A stretch of DNA of 64,000 nucleotides from Psychromonas algarum (GTDB lineage Bacteria > Pseudomonadota > Gammaproteobacteria > Enterobacterales > Psychromonadaceae), in assembly GCF_004376845.1 (NCBI RefSeq), contig NZ_SNUW01000004.1:124001-188000 (forward strand). Reading direction: 5' to 3'. A program made the position numbers and the translations under genes. Shown here in pieces: positions 7,695-16,285 of this stretch; within the stretch, counting starts at the first letter, position 1; every line of letters begins with the position of its first letter. Under the pieces are notes generated by a model. It was not told the DNA's origin. It was given only the letters and a program-made list of their open reading frames with translations, and ran no database searches.

Positions 7695-8768
7695 ATGTTA
7701 CTAACTTCAAAGCAATTTCAAAAAATAGTACAAAAATTAAGTCGCCGCTTAACTTGGCCTATTATGTTTATGCTGATGTTATTACAGGCGTTAGTGACAT
7801 ACATATTGTTAGCAATGGCAGGAGAAATACAGTTAACACACGATCCTATTGAGTTCTTTTATTACAATATGGTTGTTGTCTCAACGGTGGGGTTTGGAGA
7901 TTTAAGCCCAGTTACACATATCGGAAAAGGCATTGTCGCTTTTTGGCAGATCCCATCGGGTTTAATCGTGTTTGCTTCATTTATTGGTAAATCCACCCAA
8001 TTATTTATTGATATAGCGAGAAAAAATATGAACGGTAGTAATGACTTCTCACACTTAAATGATCACATTCTTTTATTATGCTGGGATAAATATTCTACTG
8101 AGCAAGTAGTACAGTTAATTTTGGGTGACAAAAAACGTAAAAAAAGACGTATTTTATTATGTGTAACTGATGAAATGAAAAACCCTTTTCCAGATAATGA
8201 TGAAGTTTCATTTGCAAAATTACGCACTTTTTCAGATACAGAAGAGTTAGATAGAATTGCATTACAAAAAGCAAGACGAATAATTATCGATGGAAAATCT
8301 GATGATGAAACACTTTCGATCGCACTTAGTATTGCAACCTTTGCCGATAAAAGTGCCAACATTACAGCACATTTTTTTGATGAGACTAAAGCTAACCTCT
8401 TAAAAATGCACTGCCCTCATATCGAATGTAGTATTGATAATAGTGCACAGATGATGGTGCGCAGTATGCAAGATCCCGGTTCAAGTAAAGTAACAGAACA
8501 ATTACTTTCAACATTGAATGGAGCAACTTTATATAGTTTTTTAGTACCAGAATTAGAACAAGAAATTGCTTTTGGAGAGTTGTTTGATACCTTAAAACAA
8601 CGTTACGACATGATTTTATTAGGCTTTAGCAAAAGTAAAAATGGTGATGATATACGCCTGAATCCTGCAAGTGATGTGAATATACAAAGCCATTATTATT
8701 TACACTATATCGCTAATGAGCGTATGGATGTCACTGATATTGATTGGAAAAATATTAAACAAGCGTAA
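7695..8768 (+). CDS. Potassium channel family protein with degenerate RCK-like domain
   Basis: Two membrane segments (about 22-42 and 82-105) flank a pore helix and the selectivity filter TVGFGD (64-69), as in two-TM K+ channels. The roughly 240-residue cytoplasmic part begins DHILLLCWDKYSTEQVV, where a classical RCK/TrkA-N domain would show a Gly-x-Gly-x-x-Gly nucleotide loop; that loop is absent, so the nucleotide site is probably lost or altered. A second RCK-like half seems present near 210-357. It starts nine bases after ilvA, so co-transcription is likely. Ion selectivity for K+ is inferred from the filter only. Confidence 0.85.
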   Translation: MLLTSKQFQKIVQKLSRRLTWPIMFMLMLLQALVTYILLAMAGEIQLTHDPIEFFYYNMVVVSTVGFGDLSPVTHIGKGIVAFWQIPSGLIVFASFIGKSTQLFIDIARKNMNGSNDFSHLNDHILLLCWDKYSTEQVVQLILGDKKRKKRRILLCVTDEMKNPFPDNDEVSFAKLRTFSDTEELDRIALQKARRIIIDGKSDDETLSIALSIATFADKSANITAHFFDETKANLLKMHCPHIECSIDNSAQMMVRSMQDPGSSKVTEQLLSTLNGATLYSFLVPELEQEIAFGELFDTLKQRYDMILLGFSKSKNGDDIRLNPASDVNIQSHYYLHYIANERMDVTDIDWKNIKQA

Positions 8769-9420: not shown

Positions 9421-9803
9421 GTTACTTCCTTTGATTCTTTTATTTTATATTTCATACTGAGGTGAATCATTACTGACCAATCATTGCTTATGCCCATTAT
9501 CCTCACGACATAGCAACAAAGACTAACAAAGTGAGACATATAATGCCACAAAGCAGACTAAATGATATTGTTTAGCACATTAAAAAACCACCGAGCCTGT
9601 TACATGGGTGGTTTTCATTTTGAGTAAAAAATTCAACTAATTATACCGATTAGGTTAAACATGTTATCTAAATTTTACGCTGGAAAAACAATTCAGTTCA
9701 AGGCATAAACTGACGTAAACGGTGATCCCCTTTAGCAAATTCACAACAAAGAAATGGGCTGTTTTAGTCAGTAAAATAGAGAAACTATTTGTTGTAATTG
9801 GAA
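9421..9803. other. Gene-free stretch: operon terminator plus dispersed repeat
   Basis: No coding sequence. The stretch contains the presumed promoter of the membrane protein to the left, a terminator hairpin (9584-9615) and most of repeat copy A (9639-9807). Both are listed separately. Confidence 0.7.
9578..9615 (-). terminator. Intrinsic terminator of the MscS/ATPase unit
   Basis: AAAACCACC (9584-9592) and GGTGGTTTT (9607-9615) form the stem. Read on the minus strand the hairpin runs into T6, so it ends the operon that comes from 13056 and 10715. It is about 190 bases past the MscS stop codon because repeat copy A lies in between. Confidence 0.78.
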
Positions 9804-9807
9804 TTAA
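9639..9807. repeat. Dispersed MITE-like repeat, copy A
   Basis: Aligns along nearly its whole length with copies B (about 37.54 kb) and C (about 54.85 kb). Shared blocks include TTATCTAAATTTT.CGC near the left end, TTCAAGGC.TAAA, CTTTAGCAAATT and a TTTTA..CAGTAAAAT core. The left end reads TTATACCGATTA and the complement of the right end TTAATTCCAATTA, imperfect inverted ends. TCAACT occurs directly on both sides (9633-9638 and 9808-9813), which could be a target duplication. No protein is encoded. Confidence 0.75.
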
Positions 9808-10715
9808 TCAACTTCTCGCACATTCCGTAAAGAAGCGCTTTGTACCGCAATAGCAGGCGGTAGAATATTGTTATTTCTAAATTCTTGCATTACTCGCAAT
9901 GTAATATCTGTTTCAAATAATTTTTCAAATTTAGTATCAACCACATAAGCTTTACAGGTTAATTTGATTGCTAAATAATTATCAGTAATAGTTTGCTGAA
10001 CAATCACAACAACAGGTTTAGGTAAATGTACATAACGACTTGATGATGCACACTCTTGGATAAGTTCACGAGCTAATGTAATGTCTTGATCTAACCCCAC
10101 ATGAAAGGGAATATTAACCTGCATATCTAATGCACCATAGTTACCGCTACTCACAGCTTCATTTAAAAATTTATTATTAGGGATAGTAATAACATCATCA
10201 TTCAAAGTATTCATACGAACAGAGCGTAAACCTATGGCAATAATATCACCATAATGCCCTTCAAAAGTAACACGGTCACCAACTTGGAATGGTCTATCAA
10301 TCATAATGGTTAAACCAGCAACAAAGGATGCCGTTAAGTCTTTTAAAGCAAAACCAACCGATACAGCAATAGTACCGCCAATTAACGCTAAAACCCTATC
10401 ATCTACACGAAAGCTAAGCATAAAGACGGTCAATGCAGCAGACATATAAACAAAGAACTGAAAGAAGGACTGTAATTTTTGTAACAACATTCGTCGTTGT
10501 ACAAATTGCCCACTAATCGTCGTTACAACTGAATCAACAAATCGTAATAATAACCATGCGCCTGCAATCAGTACCAACGAAGCAATAACACCACTCCATC
10601 GAATTAAACCTGCAAAGTTTTGTATTCCATCTAATGAAGCAGTAGGAACCGCATCAGCTGCAGATACGAATGGGGTAAGGCATAAAAATAAAAGACCAAT
10701 TAAAATACGAATCAT
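9804..10715 (-). CDS. MscS-family mechanosensitive channel
   Basis: Small-conductance mechanosensitive channel family. A signal peptide-like segment (1-20, ending VSAADA) is followed by transmembrane segments near 40-58 and 84-103 and the pore helix at about 108-137 (LIGGTIAVSVGFALKDLTAS). The cytoplasmic beta domain has RPFQVGD (141-147) and IPNN (178-181). 303 residues is close to E. coli MscS. The gene starts one base after the stop of the large membrane ATPase-like gene, so translation is probably coupled and a functional link likely. Its TAA stop lies inside repeat copy A. Confidence 0.93.
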   Translation of the reverse strand: MIRILIGLLFLCLTPFVSAADAVPTASLDGIQNFAGLIRWSGVIASLVLIAGAWLLLRFVDSVVTTISGQFVQRRMLLQKLQSFFQFFVYMSAALTVFMLSFRVDDRVLALIGGTIAVSVGFALKDLTASFVAGLTIMIDRPFQVGDRVTFEGHYGDIIAIGLRSVRMNTLNDDVITIPNNKFLNEAVSSGNYGALDMQVNIPFHVGLDQDITLARELIQECASSSRYVHLPKPVVVIVQQTITDNYLAIKLTCKAYVVDTKFEKLFETDITLRVMQEFRNNNILPPAIAVQSASLRNVREVD

Positions 10716-10716
10716 A

Positions 10717-13056
10717 CTATTTCACCAATAAATGTTGACGATGCAAAATGTCAGTAATATTTCTAAACCAAAGATCTGAAATACGTGTTTGCCCTTCAGC
10801 CCACTCGATATAACCTCGACTTTGAAAATAACGTAATGTGCTGATCACCTCAACAATACTTAATTGCGTGCAATCTCTTAATTCTTCTGGTGATGCAGTT
10901 TCAAGTTGTACAATAGAACGTAATATAGCTAACATCGGTTTTGGCATTTTTTCTAAACCATCGGAAGAAGGGATCACAAATAAACGTACTTTGACAATCC
11001 CCTCTTTATCTTCAAATAAAGAACGTCTAAAAAAGCTTAACGAAACCGTTGGGTTTCCGTCTGAGTAGTCCCATAAAATACGATAAAATCCATTTCGAGC
11101 ATGTTCTTCTTCACTTAAATCATCTTTATCCCATTGTCTTGGTAAAGCTAATCCTTCAAATGATATAGAAAATTCACCTTGTTCTGATACACGAGACTGT
11201 AGTAGTTGATTAACTTCTTTTTCTTTCCAGCGAGGCATGAAAGTGACTAAATCAAATAATAAACGTTCTCCACGAGCCCTATCAACAAACCGCCAACTCG
11301 ATTTTTCAATCGCTAATATAATGCGATGGCTCTTGCGTGTTAATCGCATTAAATTAGTTAAACGCATTAACGAAGCTAAACCACCCACTTGTGGTTTCAC
11401 TAAACGTTGTACATTATCAATGGCCATAAGATAACATTCATCGCTCTCTTGCAGAAAACTCAAGATAGTTTGCTCATCTGCATTATCTAAACCTAATTGG
11501 GTTGCAATGCCTTCTAATAATGATTCATACCCTTCACTTGGACAATCAACAAAAATAGGAGTCGCATTTTTAACGTCATGCAAAAGACGCCTCAACATGG
11601 TTGTTGTGCCAATACCACGTTCTCCTGATAAAACACACATAGCAGGTTTATCACTATGCACAAAATGAGCTAACTCCCCCATTTCCTGCGCGGCATATTC
11701 TGGAATCAAAATACTATTTTCACTACCCGGCTGGACATAGTTAAAAGTGCGCTCACCGCAGACTTGTTTTAAATTGGATTTTTGATCATTGATATCAGTT
11801 TGTTTTGCAACTTCAATACGAAATAGATAAGCGAGCATATGACTAACAATTTGATATTGAGATAACACCATAAGAATAGAGTGTTGGATAGTATGAAATA
11901 ATAACCAAGCACCAGTAATAGCTGTGCAAATAGTACTTAATAATAATCTATCTTTATTATGAATGGCCCAACGAACAGTCAAAGGTAATACCATGCTGTC
12001 TTTTAACATACTAAAAATAAAATTTTTCCATTTATGTAAACTATAAATAGTTAATAAAACATAAAATAGGAAAAGTAAGCTAGCAATCCATTCGTAGATA
12101 GTTCCTTTACCTAAAGTCATTGCCGATATTTGTGAAATTAATCCGGTAGTAATAAACCCCCAAACATAAAAACGGATGGTACTTAATCGTAACGTCACTA
12201 ATTCAGGTGATAGTTTTCTACTATGGCGATAAGTAAATTCCACAATAAAACTTACAGCGATAGCACCACCTAATATCCACCAAGTAAAGATCTCTAAGAA
12301 AATAAGATGTTGCAAACTTGGTAATGTGGCCAAAATACGTAAAGATAAAGTGATTGCTATTAAGCAAGCAATTGCACGCTGAGCACGACTTACATACCAA
12401 AAAAAATGTGCTGTCATGCTTCTTCGTTTTGCACCAGAGTTTATTTGCTCACGTAATTTATCTATTAATCTTTTACTGTTACTAAGCCACCATTTTAATA
12501 CTAATAAAACCAAGAGTATTTTAAATAAAACGCTAAAAACAGGGATAGGGGAAATAAAGAAGTCTGATATAAAAAGTTTAAAAGCACGTACTTGATGATA
12601 AATGAAATATTGGATGTTTAAACGCGTTAAAGCTAACTCAGATTTAAATTGTAATACCCCTTCTGGACCAAACCCTACAACTAAGTCACGTACATTACGG
12701 CTGCTCAATTCCAATAATTTTTCTTTATTTTTACTAAGGCTTACTGCTGATTCATAAAATAAATCAACCTCTTCCCAGTTTTTATCACTGTATTTATTCT
12801 TATGGTATTTAGCTAGAGCTGCAGAAAAATCTGCTATGTGAGTCGCTTGAGCATCTAATGTTTCTGATAATAATAAATCAATATGGTGCTGTTCACTCTT
12901 ATTCAAAAAATGCACATCAGGTAACTCATTGACTTCTTGATTTAGTGTTGCAGCTTCAGTGGTAACAGAAGAAGAAGCAGGATCAGCAATATCAAGCGAT
13001 GCATTAGCGCCAAATGAAATACAATAAACAATCAGTAATACAAAAACATTTTTCAT
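10717..13056 (-). CDS. Large polytopic membrane protein with degenerate P-loop ATPase domain and winged helix
   Basis: 779 residues in a layout I do not know as a named family. A signal peptide (1-19) leads to a periplasmic helical region to about 155; about six hydrophobic segments follow (roughly 165-190, 222-245, 251-274, 295-315, 320-340, 371-400). A cytoplasmic NTPase region of AAA/STAND type (about 440-640) comes next, and a winged-helix-like end (about 690-779). The P-loop reads GERGIGTTT (478-486), with Thr where the Walker A lysine should be; the Walker B-like strand is LMAIDN (543-548). Transcribed directly ahead of the MscS gene with a one-base gap. I infer a regulator or partner of that channel; nothing in the sequence proves it. 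Confidence 0.8.
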   Translation of the reverse strand: MKNVFVLLIVYCISFGANASLDIADPASSSVTTEAATLNQEVNELPDVHFLNKSEQHHIDLLLSETLDAQATHIADFSAALAKYHKNKYSDKNWEEVDLFYESAVSLSKNKEKLLELSSRNVRDLVVGFGPEGVLQFKSELALTRLNIQYFIYHQVRAFKLFISDFFISPIPVFSVLFKILLVLLVLKWWLSNSKRLIDKLREQINSGAKRRSMTAHFFWYVSRAQRAIACLIAITLSLRILATLPSLQHLIFLEIFTWWILGGAIAVSFIVEFTYRHSRKLSPELVTLRLSTIRFYVWGFITTGLISQISAMTLGKGTIYEWIASLLFLFYVLLTIYSLHKWKNFIFSMLKDSMVLPLTVRWAIHNKDRLLLSTICTAITGAWLLFHTIQHSILMVLSQYQIVSHMLAYLFRIEVAKQTDINDQKSNLKQVCGERTFNYVQPGSENSILIPEYAAQEMGELAHFVHSDKPAMCVLSGERGIGTTTMLRRLLHDVKNATPIFVDCPSEGYESLLEGIATQLGLDNADEQTILSFLQESDECYLMAIDNVQRLVKPQVGGLASLMRLTNLMRLTRKSHRIILAIEKSSWRFVDRARGERLLFDLVTFMPRWKEKEVNQLLQSRVSEQGEFSISFEGLALPRQWDKDDLSEEEHARNGFYRILWDYSDGNPTVSLSFFRRSLFEDKEGIVKVRLFVIPSSDGLEKMPKPMLAILRSIVQLETASPEELRDCTQLSIVEVISTLRYFQSRGYIEWAEGQTRISDLWFRNITDILHRQHLLVK

Positions 13057-14139: not shown

Positions 14140-15078
14140 ATGAGTATTGAAAACGTAATCACTCAACCATCAATATTGGATACGATAACGCATAGTATGC
14201 CGCTTTGGTTTCAGCAAGGTGGTTTAATAATGTGGTTATTATTGGCAGCTTCTTTTCTTGCAACCATTGTGACCATGGAGCGTTTATCTGTTTGGATTAT
14301 TTATTCTTTGCAAAAAGAACATTTTGCATTGCAAGAATGTTTTGCCGCTTTAAACAAACAAGAAAAAACAGAGGCTTTATTAGCCTGTAAAAAAGTCGAA
14401 ACCCCCGCTTTAAATATGCTTGAGCATGGTATTAAAGCCCTGCCTTTCTCAGTAAAAGAGAAAATGCAATCTTATGCAGAAACACAAATAAGTTTACTCT
14501 CTCGAGGGCAATCGTTATTAGAAATCATTATAAAAACGGCACCAATATTAGGTATTTTAGGAACAATATTAGGTCTTATTAATTCATTTAACCTACTCAG
14601 TTCACAAGGTATTGAAGGATCAACTGCTGAAGCCGTCATCGGGGCGATATCACAATCTTTAATTCCTATTGCAACCGGACTTAGCATAGGATTAATGGCG
14701 TTATTACCTTATAAGGTATTTGCCGCTTTAATTCAAAAATTACGATTACACTTAGAAAATATTGCAAATGAATTTCATCATATCTGCCAACAAAAAAACT
14801 TGATCATGATACAAATAAATACCGAAGAAAAAATACAGAAGCACGCACAAAGGCTTTCAATATCAGAGCAACAAATGCCATATCATTATGAATTTTCAGA
14901 AGAAACTGGAGAAATAAATGTTAATCTTCATACGCATAGTGAAGACATTAAACGCACAACATCAGCATCAATAGCTCAGATGTATAATGAAAAATCACCT
15001 CATCATATTCAAACAGGATCTGATGCGACTAATATCGTTACCAAAACAACTGAAAAAAACACACAGAGTACACAATAA
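14140..15078 (+). CDS. exbB: ExbB/TolQ/MotA-family proton channel protein with long polar tail
   Basis: Inner-membrane stator that feeds proton-motive force to TonB. Three membrane segments are visible: about 28-50, about 130-150 with the family motif TAPILGILGTILGL, and about 165-195 with ISQSLIPIATGLSIGL. The first about 220 residues match ExbB, but a hydrophilic tail of about 90 residues rich in Thr, His, Glu and Gln follows, which ExbB normally lacks. It sits behind the B12 riboswitch and the receptor remnant, and four bases before the TonB-like gene. No exbD lies in between or nearby. Confidence 0.85.
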   Translation: MSIENVITQPSILDTITHSMPLWFQQGGLIMWLLLAASFLATIVTMERLSVWIIYSLQKEHFALQECFAALNKQEKTEALLACKKVETPALNMLEHGIKALPFSVKEKMQSYAETQISLLSRGQSLLEIIIKTAPILGILGTILGLINSFNLLSSQGIEGSTAEAVIGAISQSLIPIATGLSIGLMALLPYKVFAALIQKLRLHLENIANEFHHICQQKNLIMIQINTEEKIQKHAQRLSISEQQMPYHYEFSEETGEINVNLHTHSEDIKRTTSASIAQMYNEKSPHHIQTGSDATNIVTKTTEKNTQSTQ

Positions 15079-15082
15079 CCCT

Positions 15083-16285
15083 ATGAAATATTCAGGTAAT
15101 TACTTCCCATTTGTCATTCTTAGTTTACTGCTATACGGCTTGTTTTTTTACTTTAATAAAAATACGAGCAGTGAAAAGAACATGCCTTTAAATAGTATTC
15201 AGCAAACAACTAAAACATCAGTAAACGTCATAGAAGATGCTGATTTAATCAGCTCGGAATCAAGTGCAGCTATCACCTTGTCAAAAGAAGAATCTGAAGA
15301 AGCATTAGTTAATAAAGCAGTTTCACTAGAAAAAAGTAAACTTGAAATTCAACGAGAAGAGCAAATTAAAATTGCAAAACAGAAGCACCTAGAAAGCATT
15401 AAAAATAATAAGGCAACTAACGATGCTTTATTAAAAGGCCAAGTTTTTAATGATGAATTAGAAGCAATTAAGCAAGCACAGGCGACTGCTAGAATAGAAA
15501 GAGAAAAATTCCTAAAAACACAACAAAAGCTAGCACAAGCTAAAAAAGCAGAACAAAATGACTCTATTGCATCTATTTTACCAATCTCTGCACCTGTACC
15601 AGAAACAAATAAATCATCAGCAAGGATCACGATTAAAAAAGTAGTTGCCAAAGAAGAGCCTCAAGCGATTAAACCTAGAATAACAATAAAACCTAAATTA
15701 TTGCCTAAAGAATCATCGCAACCTGAAACTAAAAAACTAAATGCTAATCACGTAAATATTCAATCAACAGCAGCAGTGAGTACTGTATCTACACCTATCA
15801 CAGCTACGTCAGCGAATATAAATACAACAAGTAAAACAGAACAAAAGACTATTCCAGAAACAACAGCTAAAGTGAGACAAGCACAATCAAAGGCCATAGC
15901 AACAAAAGCAGTAGAAACAAATTCAACACCTAAAGAAAAAGCAAAGCGTACCTTTAAACCCCAGGCGGTTGCAGTAAATAATATTCCTAATACAGAAGGC
16001 AATTTACAAAGTGCCGTTGCAGTCTCTGGTAATAAACCCGATTACCCTCAAATGGCACAACAAAACAAGCTAGAAGGTAAGGTCATCGCAAAAATGATAG
16101 TAATGGTAGATGGAAAAACACAAGGCGCTGAAATAATACAATCAAGTGGTCATGCTGTATTAGATAATGAAGTTTTAGAATTTATAAATAGAGAATTATT
16201 CATGCCTTCTTTAGAGGGTGAAGAAAAAGTAACAAGTGAACAATTATTTTCTTATCAATTTAAATCAGGATCTAAATCCGAATAA
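15083..16285 (+). CDS. tonB: TonB-like energy transducer
   Basis: 400 residues from the ATG at 15083, four bases after exbB. One N-terminal membrane anchor (about 8-24) is followed by a long periplasmic linker rich in Lys, Ala, Thr and Glu with weak coiled-coil character (about 70-150), not the proline-rich linker of E. coli TonB. The C-terminal TonB domain (about 310-395) has DYPQMAQQNKLEGKV, IQSSGHAVLDNEVLEF and FMPSL. A longer open frame starting at 14987 would overlap the exbB end by 92 bases and place extra residues before the anchor, so I prefer 15083. Probably served B12 uptake before the receptor decayed. Confidence 0.85.
   Translation: MKYSGNYFPFVILSLLLYGLFFYFNKNTSSEKNMPLNSIQQTTKTSVNVIEDADLISSESSAAITLSKEESEEALVNKAVSLEKSKLEIQREEQIKIAKQKHLESIKNNKATNDALLKGQVFNDELEAIKQAQATARIEREKFLKTQQKLAQAKKAEQNDSIASILPISAPVPETNKSSARITIKKVVAKEEPQAIKPRITIKPKLLPKESSQPETKKLNANHVNIQSTAAVSTVSTPITATSANINTTSKTEQKTIPETTAKVRQAQSKAIATKAVETNSTPKEKAKRTFKPQAVAVNNIPNTEGNLQSAVAVSGNKPDYPQMAQQNKLEGKVIAKMIVMVDGKTQGAEIIQSSGHAVLDNEVLEFINRELFMPSLEGEEKVTSEQLFSYQFKSGSKSE

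Follow-up and report, generated by a model that had tools for sequence, protein, structure and literature searches.

Mechanosensitive channels of the MscS superfamily are best known from MscS itself, the textbook channel that is opened by membrane tension alone, and from MscK and MscM, in which an MscS pore is joined on one chain to a large periplasmic and membrane part. P-loop proteins that match the AAA_22 model include ExeA and TniB. For the E. coli MscS, one report describes binding by the cell-division protein FtsZ (PMC4440785). Here we describe a gene pair from Psychromonas algarum, located in a stretch of 64,000 nucleotides (assembly GCF_004376845.1, contig NZ_SNUW01000004.1, positions 124,001 to 188,000; hereafter the window), in which the gene of an MscS-family channel (P2) is preceded by one that encodes P1, a large P-loop protein of the membrane. 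Comparison of sequences and gene neighborhoods raises the prospect that P1 and P2 are a two-gene, two-protein channel unit with P1 as its dedicated regulatory membrane partner, a reading to which we give an even chance.

Pairing of P1 with one MscS subfamily

P1 and P2 lie on the minus strand of the window, separated by a single base in the list of open reading frames (ORFs), in agreement with the initial annotation, which had described a 779-residue membrane protein followed after one base by an MscS gene. The span it gave, 9639..13056, contains both genes correctly, but its start at 9639 falls about 165 bases beyond the MscS stop. The pairing that it proposed recurs outside the window, as P1 homologues adjoin MscS genes in every lineage examined. 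A first genome scan, which reaches close relatives only, recovered 49 named relatives of P1 (46 from Vibrio, one from Psychromonas marina and two from Shewanella), and in 49/49 the same strand carries an MscS gene 3' of P1, most often one base away; at locus L048 both the P1 and the MscS genes are broken. Far relatives, with 18-26% identity where measured, number 18 and comprise 12 from a family labelled f2 and three from a family labelled f10, both among other Gammaproteobacteria, and three plasmid-borne members from Alphaproteobacteria. An MscS gene follows P1 in all of them (12/12 in f2, 3/3 in f10, and 3/3 on the Caulobacter and the two Novosphingobium plasmids). The plasmid-borne relatives were recovered by searching 72,556 plasmid records and belong to Caulobacter sp. 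NIBR2454 and two Novosphingobium records, where P1 is annotated as "ATP-binding protein" or "AAA family ATPase" and its partner as a "mechanosensitive ion channel" protein.

Adjacency was counted over the extracted loci, which take in some of the 118 genomes surveyed in Vibrio's genus. Counting duplicates, 124 of 126 P1 ORFs have MscS downstream on the same strand; for distinct sequences the count is 92 of 94, and the gap is never more than 90 bases. L047 and L048, the two that do not, are N-terminal halves of split P1 genes, the second halves of which do precede MscS. The P1 and P2 clusters are both present in 67/67 compared loci, the next largest neighbor cluster (ABC ATPases by eye) being present in 38/67, and no third gene is fixed across lineages in these 67 loci, where the other neighbors vary by lineage. 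Proteins of 629-646 aa form a cluster near the pair in 13/67 loci, including Vibrio loci (e.g., L008) and two far f2 loci (L091 and L092). In addition, the pair is present twice in one genome (G624), complete each time (L094 and L095).

Joint presence was also observed at the level of whole genomes. P1 occurs in 3/24 genomes of the own genus, and the P2 subfamily occurs in the same three (E up to 1e-30). The order (394 genomes) yielded P1, whole or as a remnant, in 36 genomes and P2 in 35, all within those 36 (E up to 1e-60); the 36th genome, G532, holds remnants of both, and the P1 search of this set yielded three far relatives in family f2 besides the close kinds. Vibrio's genus, represented by 118 genomes, contains P1 in 67 (62 in one piece, four split, and one the G532 remnant) and P2 in 66, all within the 67 with P1 or its remnant (E up to 1e-20). 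P1 is present in 12/246 genomes of family f2 and 3/114 genomes of family f10, and a phylum sample of 190 genomes together with f10 gave the three f10-type relatives. Within the class (369 genomes, searched with a narrower profile), full-length P1 was found in the own genome only; the remaining four hits were weak ones to the P-loop. These figures depend on the number of best first-look candidates scored per genome, which for P1 was two (class and order), four (f2 and phylum) or eight (Vibrio's genus and f10), and for P2 was six (order) or 20 (Vibrio's genus); a second copy that scores lower, or a P2 without its partner, could therefore escape, least likely in the P2 searches of the own genus and Vibrio's genus. 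The sample outside the order is thin, consisting of the 369 class genomes, the 190 phylum genomes and the plasmids, with Alphaproteobacteria represented through plasmids and part of the 190.

The paired MscS genes form a subfamily of their own, which was found only with P1 or a P1 remnant in the 394- and 118-genome searches. The own genome encodes six MscS-domain genes and one copy of P1; against the P2 profile, P2 scores about 551 bits and the other five at most about 53 bits. Phylogenetic analysis of 23 of the 69 paired MscS proteins, drawn from both classes, grouped them against 13 unpaired rows (11 genes, two of which stand twice as overlapping pieces) with a support of 94 on a branch that is not starred. 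Pairing and co-occurrence thus establish a genetic partnership between P1 and this subfamily. The Caulobacter plasmid pNIBR24541 has, after the pair, another MscS gene that is unlike the paired one (L122, 8531-9469); its unpaired protein is placed in the tree next to the paired proteins, with a very long branch.

The features of the locus are collected in Table 1. The hairpin with a T-run closes the P1-P2 unit; the terminator scan, which allows loops of 3-8 only, does not contain it in its output.

Table 1. Positions of the P1-P2 genes and their parts in the window
Feature	Coordinates	Strand	Basis
P1, 779-aa membrane protein with AAA_22/STAND-like P-loop domain, first gene	10717..13056	-	ORF (ATG start), AAA_22 above cut-off
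P1 signal-peptide-like N-terminus, residues 1-20	12997..13056	-	hydropathy
P1 N-terminal region, residues ~21-166, presumed periplasmic, least conserved part	12559..12996	-	hydropathy, alignment
P1 membrane domain, residues ~168-413, five to seven hydrophobic segments	11818..12555	-	hydropathy
P1 Walker A GERGIGTTT, residues 478-486, Thr484 replacing Lys	11599..11625	-	ORF, alignment
P1 Walker B LMAIDN, residues 543-548, Asp retained, Asn at the catalytic Glu position	11413..11430	-	alignment
P1 GNP motif, residues 667-669	11050..11058	-	invariant in 69/69 rows
P1 C-terminal winged-helix-like stretch, residues 709-752	10801..10932	-	sub-threshold matches only
P2, MscS-family mechanosensitive channel, 303 aa, second gene	9804..10715	-	ORF, Pfam domains
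Terminator-like hairpin and T-run 3' of P2	9583..9616	-	spotted by eye, folded

Domain architecture and the Walker A lysine

P2 matches the Pfam models MS_channel_2nd (67.6 bits, cut-off 20.2) and MS_channel_3rd (25.3 bits, cut-off 21), and its hydropathy profile has a signal-peptide-like start followed by three membrane segments (residues 42-60, 84-102 and 108-126) and the beta-domain from residue 126. By these domains and the three segments preceding the beta-domain, P2 is a member of the MscS superfamily with predicted channel activity. Its best NCBIfam model by E-value is MscK, at 55.2 bits and far below the cut-off of 991.

Residues 471-583 of P1 match AAA_22 (38.2 bits, cut-off 27), the only Pfam model above its cut-off in the window protein; the same model is above cut-off in P1 of L090, L122 and L124 and below it in L113, L123 and L130. 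The STAND models nSTAND3/5/6, NACHT and NB-ARC are below cut-off for P1 wherever bits were shown. The STAND-like label of the initial annotation is therefore weak, as only AAA_22 passes in window P1, while the winged-helix end that it described is consistent in location but consists throughout of weak, sub-threshold matches (HTH_34 in window P1, MarR_2 and wHTH-PRTase in relatives, AspA in PDB). The GNP motif resembles the GxP motif of STAND/NB-ARC proteins. Past the signal-like stretch, the hydropathy threshold is exceeded by five segments of the window protein and by seven in a Vibrio relative, so the earlier count of about six is a fair one, with the proviso that an odd number is required if the P-loop domain is to be cytosolic. 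No peptidoglycan-binding domain was detected in window P1 at E up to 1 or among the matches listed for its relatives, and 0 PADLOC families match P1 or P2 at E up to 1. An MscK-like origin of the N-terminal and membrane part of P1 was considered and set aside: no MscK/MscM-type N-terminal domain is present among the P1 Pfam matches listed, one listing being the best 25 of 31 families, and no MscK or MscM chain among the PDB profile matches to P1.

The Walker A motif GERGIGTTT, with Thr484 (codon ACA) in place of the lysine, and the Walker B strand ending in Asp-Asn both read as first claimed. In the 49 close relatives, the lysine site is occupied by Thr (41), Ser (3), Ala (3) or Val (2) and by Lys in 0/49. 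As all 49 are without Lys there, Thr484 cannot be put down to a local mutation or to an error of assembly. Both outcomes that the initial annotation had named as refuting it, homologues mostly apart from MscS genes and Lys in all close relatives, were thus sought and did not appear. Among 88 distinct full-length P1 sequences, a set that leaves out P1 ORFs under 700 aa (e.g., L043, L047 and L048), Lys is found in 18, namely 12 from f2, three from f10 and three from Alphaproteobacteria, and the others have Thr (47), Ala (14), Ser (6), Val (2) or Leu (1). The "broken" P-loop is thus real, yet it is the derived state of one clade, because the 18 far relatives retain Lys. In a tree of 69 P1 rows, built without the lysine-site column and after dropping rows >=93% identical to a kept row, the Lys-less rows form one side of a branch with a support of 100, and a single change suffices. 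The tree carries a long-branch warning among the far relatives, and its designated outgroup is not one side of a branch; the split between Lys-bearing and Lys-less rows is independent of the branching order of the far relatives. The distribution is best read as one loss of Lys, in the Vibrio/Psychromonas/Shewanella clade: the tree alone cannot separate gain from loss, and the direction is drawn from the fact that three separate far lineages carry Lys, as do P-loop proteins in general. Within this clade, the Shewanella P1 of L030 and L053 group with a subset of Vibrio, and L093, which seems to belong to the same family, has diverged strongly, a possible case of transfer.

The remainder of the nucleotide-binding site is retained. 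Thr485 is present in 51/51 Lys-less rows, with Thr or Ser in 18/18 Lys-bearing rows, and both Walker B Asp547 and the GNP motif are present in 69/69. The Walker B Glu position is Asn in 63, Asp in three and Leu in three of the 69 rows and Glu in none, suggesting that even Lys-bearing P1 may be poor hydrolases. Conservation within the Lys-less clade is highest in the C-terminal part (0.86), followed by the P-loop (0.78), membrane (0.71), linker (0.65) and N-terminal (0.57) parts. Mutation of the Walker A lysine in P-loop nucleoside triphosphatases (NTPases) is described as drastically lowering activity (PMC9599529). Since the lysine site varies among five residues whereas Thr485, Asp547 and GNP do not vary, and since conservation peaks in the P-loop and C-terminal parts, we conclude that P1 of the Lys-less clade is a putative functional pseudo-NTPase rather than a decayed enzyme. 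Compensation for the lysine by charged residues fixed only in this clade (R571, H577, K585, R589, R593, R595 and others) is conceivable, but such residues are expected anyway, as the Lys-less clade is less diverse than the Lys-bearing set, and K585 is Gln in the divergent Lys-less L093.

Proposed function and alternative explanations

The strict pairing with one MscS subfamily, the fixed gene order, and the joint loss and duplication point to a two-protein machine, and we infer from the genetic partnership a complex, an effect on gating, and a ligand. In such a machine, P2 would be the MscS pore, and the N-terminal periplasmic part and membrane domain of P1 would sit with the channel. The cytosolic STAND-like P-loop and winged-helix module of P1 would sense a cytosolic state, either a nucleotide or another anionic ligand, and this state would set how readily the P2 pore opens. 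Ancestral P1 with Lys could bind nucleoside triphosphate (NTP) normally, probably with poor hydrolysis, and after the single loss of Lys the module would bind its ligand or act as a scaffold without hydrolysis in the Vibrio/Psychromonas/Shewanella clade. A more specific model, which we offer tentatively and regard as doubtful, is a ligand-gated mechanosensitive channel in which P1 would form a ring aligned with the MscS heptamer and the pore would be locked or unlocked by the state of the P-loop module, such that tension would open it only if the cytosolic signal permits; the Vibrio-type clade would then be a pure ligand sensor with no NTP hydrolysis. If true, this would be an inflammasome-like build on a pore.

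Several observations weigh against a joint channel unit. The case for an association of P1 and P2 is genetic throughout, and adjacent genes tend to be lost or moved jointly, so that co-occurrence could arise whatever their function. No P1-P2 fusion was seen among the examined loci. The pair is dispensable, as its distribution is patchy in the own genus, f2, f10 and the class sample. In one genome of the order (G671), P2 is intact but P1 is reduced to a remnant of 58 residues, indicating that P2 may work alone or that this locus is decaying. P1 is split in the four genomes of Vibrio's genus mentioned above, and P2 is also split in one of them (G1056); the contamination listed for these four genomes is 4 to 7%. 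Moreover, the hydropathy count leaves either side of the membrane possible for the P-loop domain of P1.

Among the alternatives, P1 might serve the channel in its assembly, its localisation or its anchoring in the envelope, as ExeA-type AAA_22 membrane ATPases do for secretins, and have no part in gating. In favor of this, AAA_22 is the best Pfam match of window P1, and an N-terminal domain precedes its membrane part; however, no peptidoglycan-binding domain is among the P1 matches listed, and such motors normally require ATP hydrolysis, whereas this clade is without the Walker A Lys; we regard this explanation as unlikely. It is also rather improbable that P1 and P2 act separately in the same condition, such as an osmotic down-shift, and share only an operon. 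The genetic nature of the evidence for a complex and the persistence of P2 beside a P1 remnant in G671 would accord with this, but gene order and tight spacing are kept over ~20% identity and two classes, although most other neighbors change, and the P2 subfamily was not found without P1 or a remnant in the genomes searched.

We consider it quite improbable that P1 is a membrane-bound transcription regulator whose winged helix controls mscS or other osmotic genes. The winged-helix matches at residues 709-752, and at the equivalent place in relatives, are what suggests it, but every one of them is sub-threshold, a winged helix after the P-loop domain is a normal part of STAND proteins, and there would be no reason for such a regulator to stay with a single MscS subfamily in two classes. 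Finally, a STAND-type defence unit, in which P1 would sense infection and open the channel to stop the cell, is very improbable: the STAND-like layout adjoining a pore-forming protein, the patchy distribution and the plasmid carriage would suit it, but neither P1 nor P2 has a PADLOC match, the pair is kept in 66/118 genomes of Vibrio's genus and is strongly conserved there, and the neighbors at the Vibrio loci (sequences judged by eye) do not resemble defence genes.

Neighboring genes and comparison with known systems

A K+-channel gene (Ion_trans_2; window 7695-8768, plus strand) lies one gene away from the pair and is its direct neighbor in two other Psychromonas loci (L007 and L097). A K+ channel of another kind, which carries an RCK domain, is encoded in the f10 loci L130 and L133 by a gene overlapping that of MscS, and the Psychromonas-type and f10-type channels are alike only around the pore. 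The proximity of K+ channels to the pair is a lead. In L134 (6965-7909), a GGDEF (diguanylate cyclase) gene overlaps the paired MscS in place of the K+ channel, possibly hinting at second-messenger control. Two genes at 14140-16285 of the window (plus strand) resemble ExbB/TolQ and TonB by eye. The own genome may lack MscL, the one match (L135) being sub-threshold (21.1 bits, cut-off 27.4) and containing an in-frame stop.

Why the MscS channels of Vibrio alginolyticus, a species without MscL, give it insufficient protection, and what they do, is a question raised in a review of 2014 (PMC4005912). The P1-P2 pair could provide a testable reason; V. alginolyticus itself stands outside this comparison. 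If P1 and P2 do form a regulated channel unit, some bacteria would place tension sensing under cytosolic control through a co-inherited membrane partner with a nucleotide-binding fold. The absence of the lysine across one clade that otherwise keeps the site is a natural experiment in the conversion of a P-loop protein to a useful pseudo-enzyme. No description of a pair of MscS and a P-loop protein was found among the matches listed from the open-licence literature, mostly at the level of titles and abstract openings. That the two genes remain together in distant bacteria points to a two-part channel that has no description within this search.

Compared with described systems, P1 resembles the STAND NTPases (NB-ARC, NACHT and nSTAND) in its P-loop domain, its invariant GNP motif and a possible winged-helix-like end, but differs in that the corresponding models are below cut-off wherever bits were shown, the Walker A Lys is missing in this clade, and the protein is polytopic and tied to a channel. 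With AAA_22 proteins it shares the model match, and it differs in having no detected peptidoglycan-binding domain, no transposition context and a different end domain. FtsZ, as it has been reported, and P1, as proposed here, would both be partners of an MscS channel; however, FtsZ is a cytosolic, general cell-division protein and not a dedicated, gene-paired membrane subunit. P2 shares the channel domains and three membrane segments with the E. coli MscS and its superfamily (Pfam PF00924/PF21082), and differs in belonging to the subfamily that accompanies P1. In contrast to MscK and MscM, the large part is here a separate protein, P1, which carries a P-loop domain and is encoded by a gene of its own.

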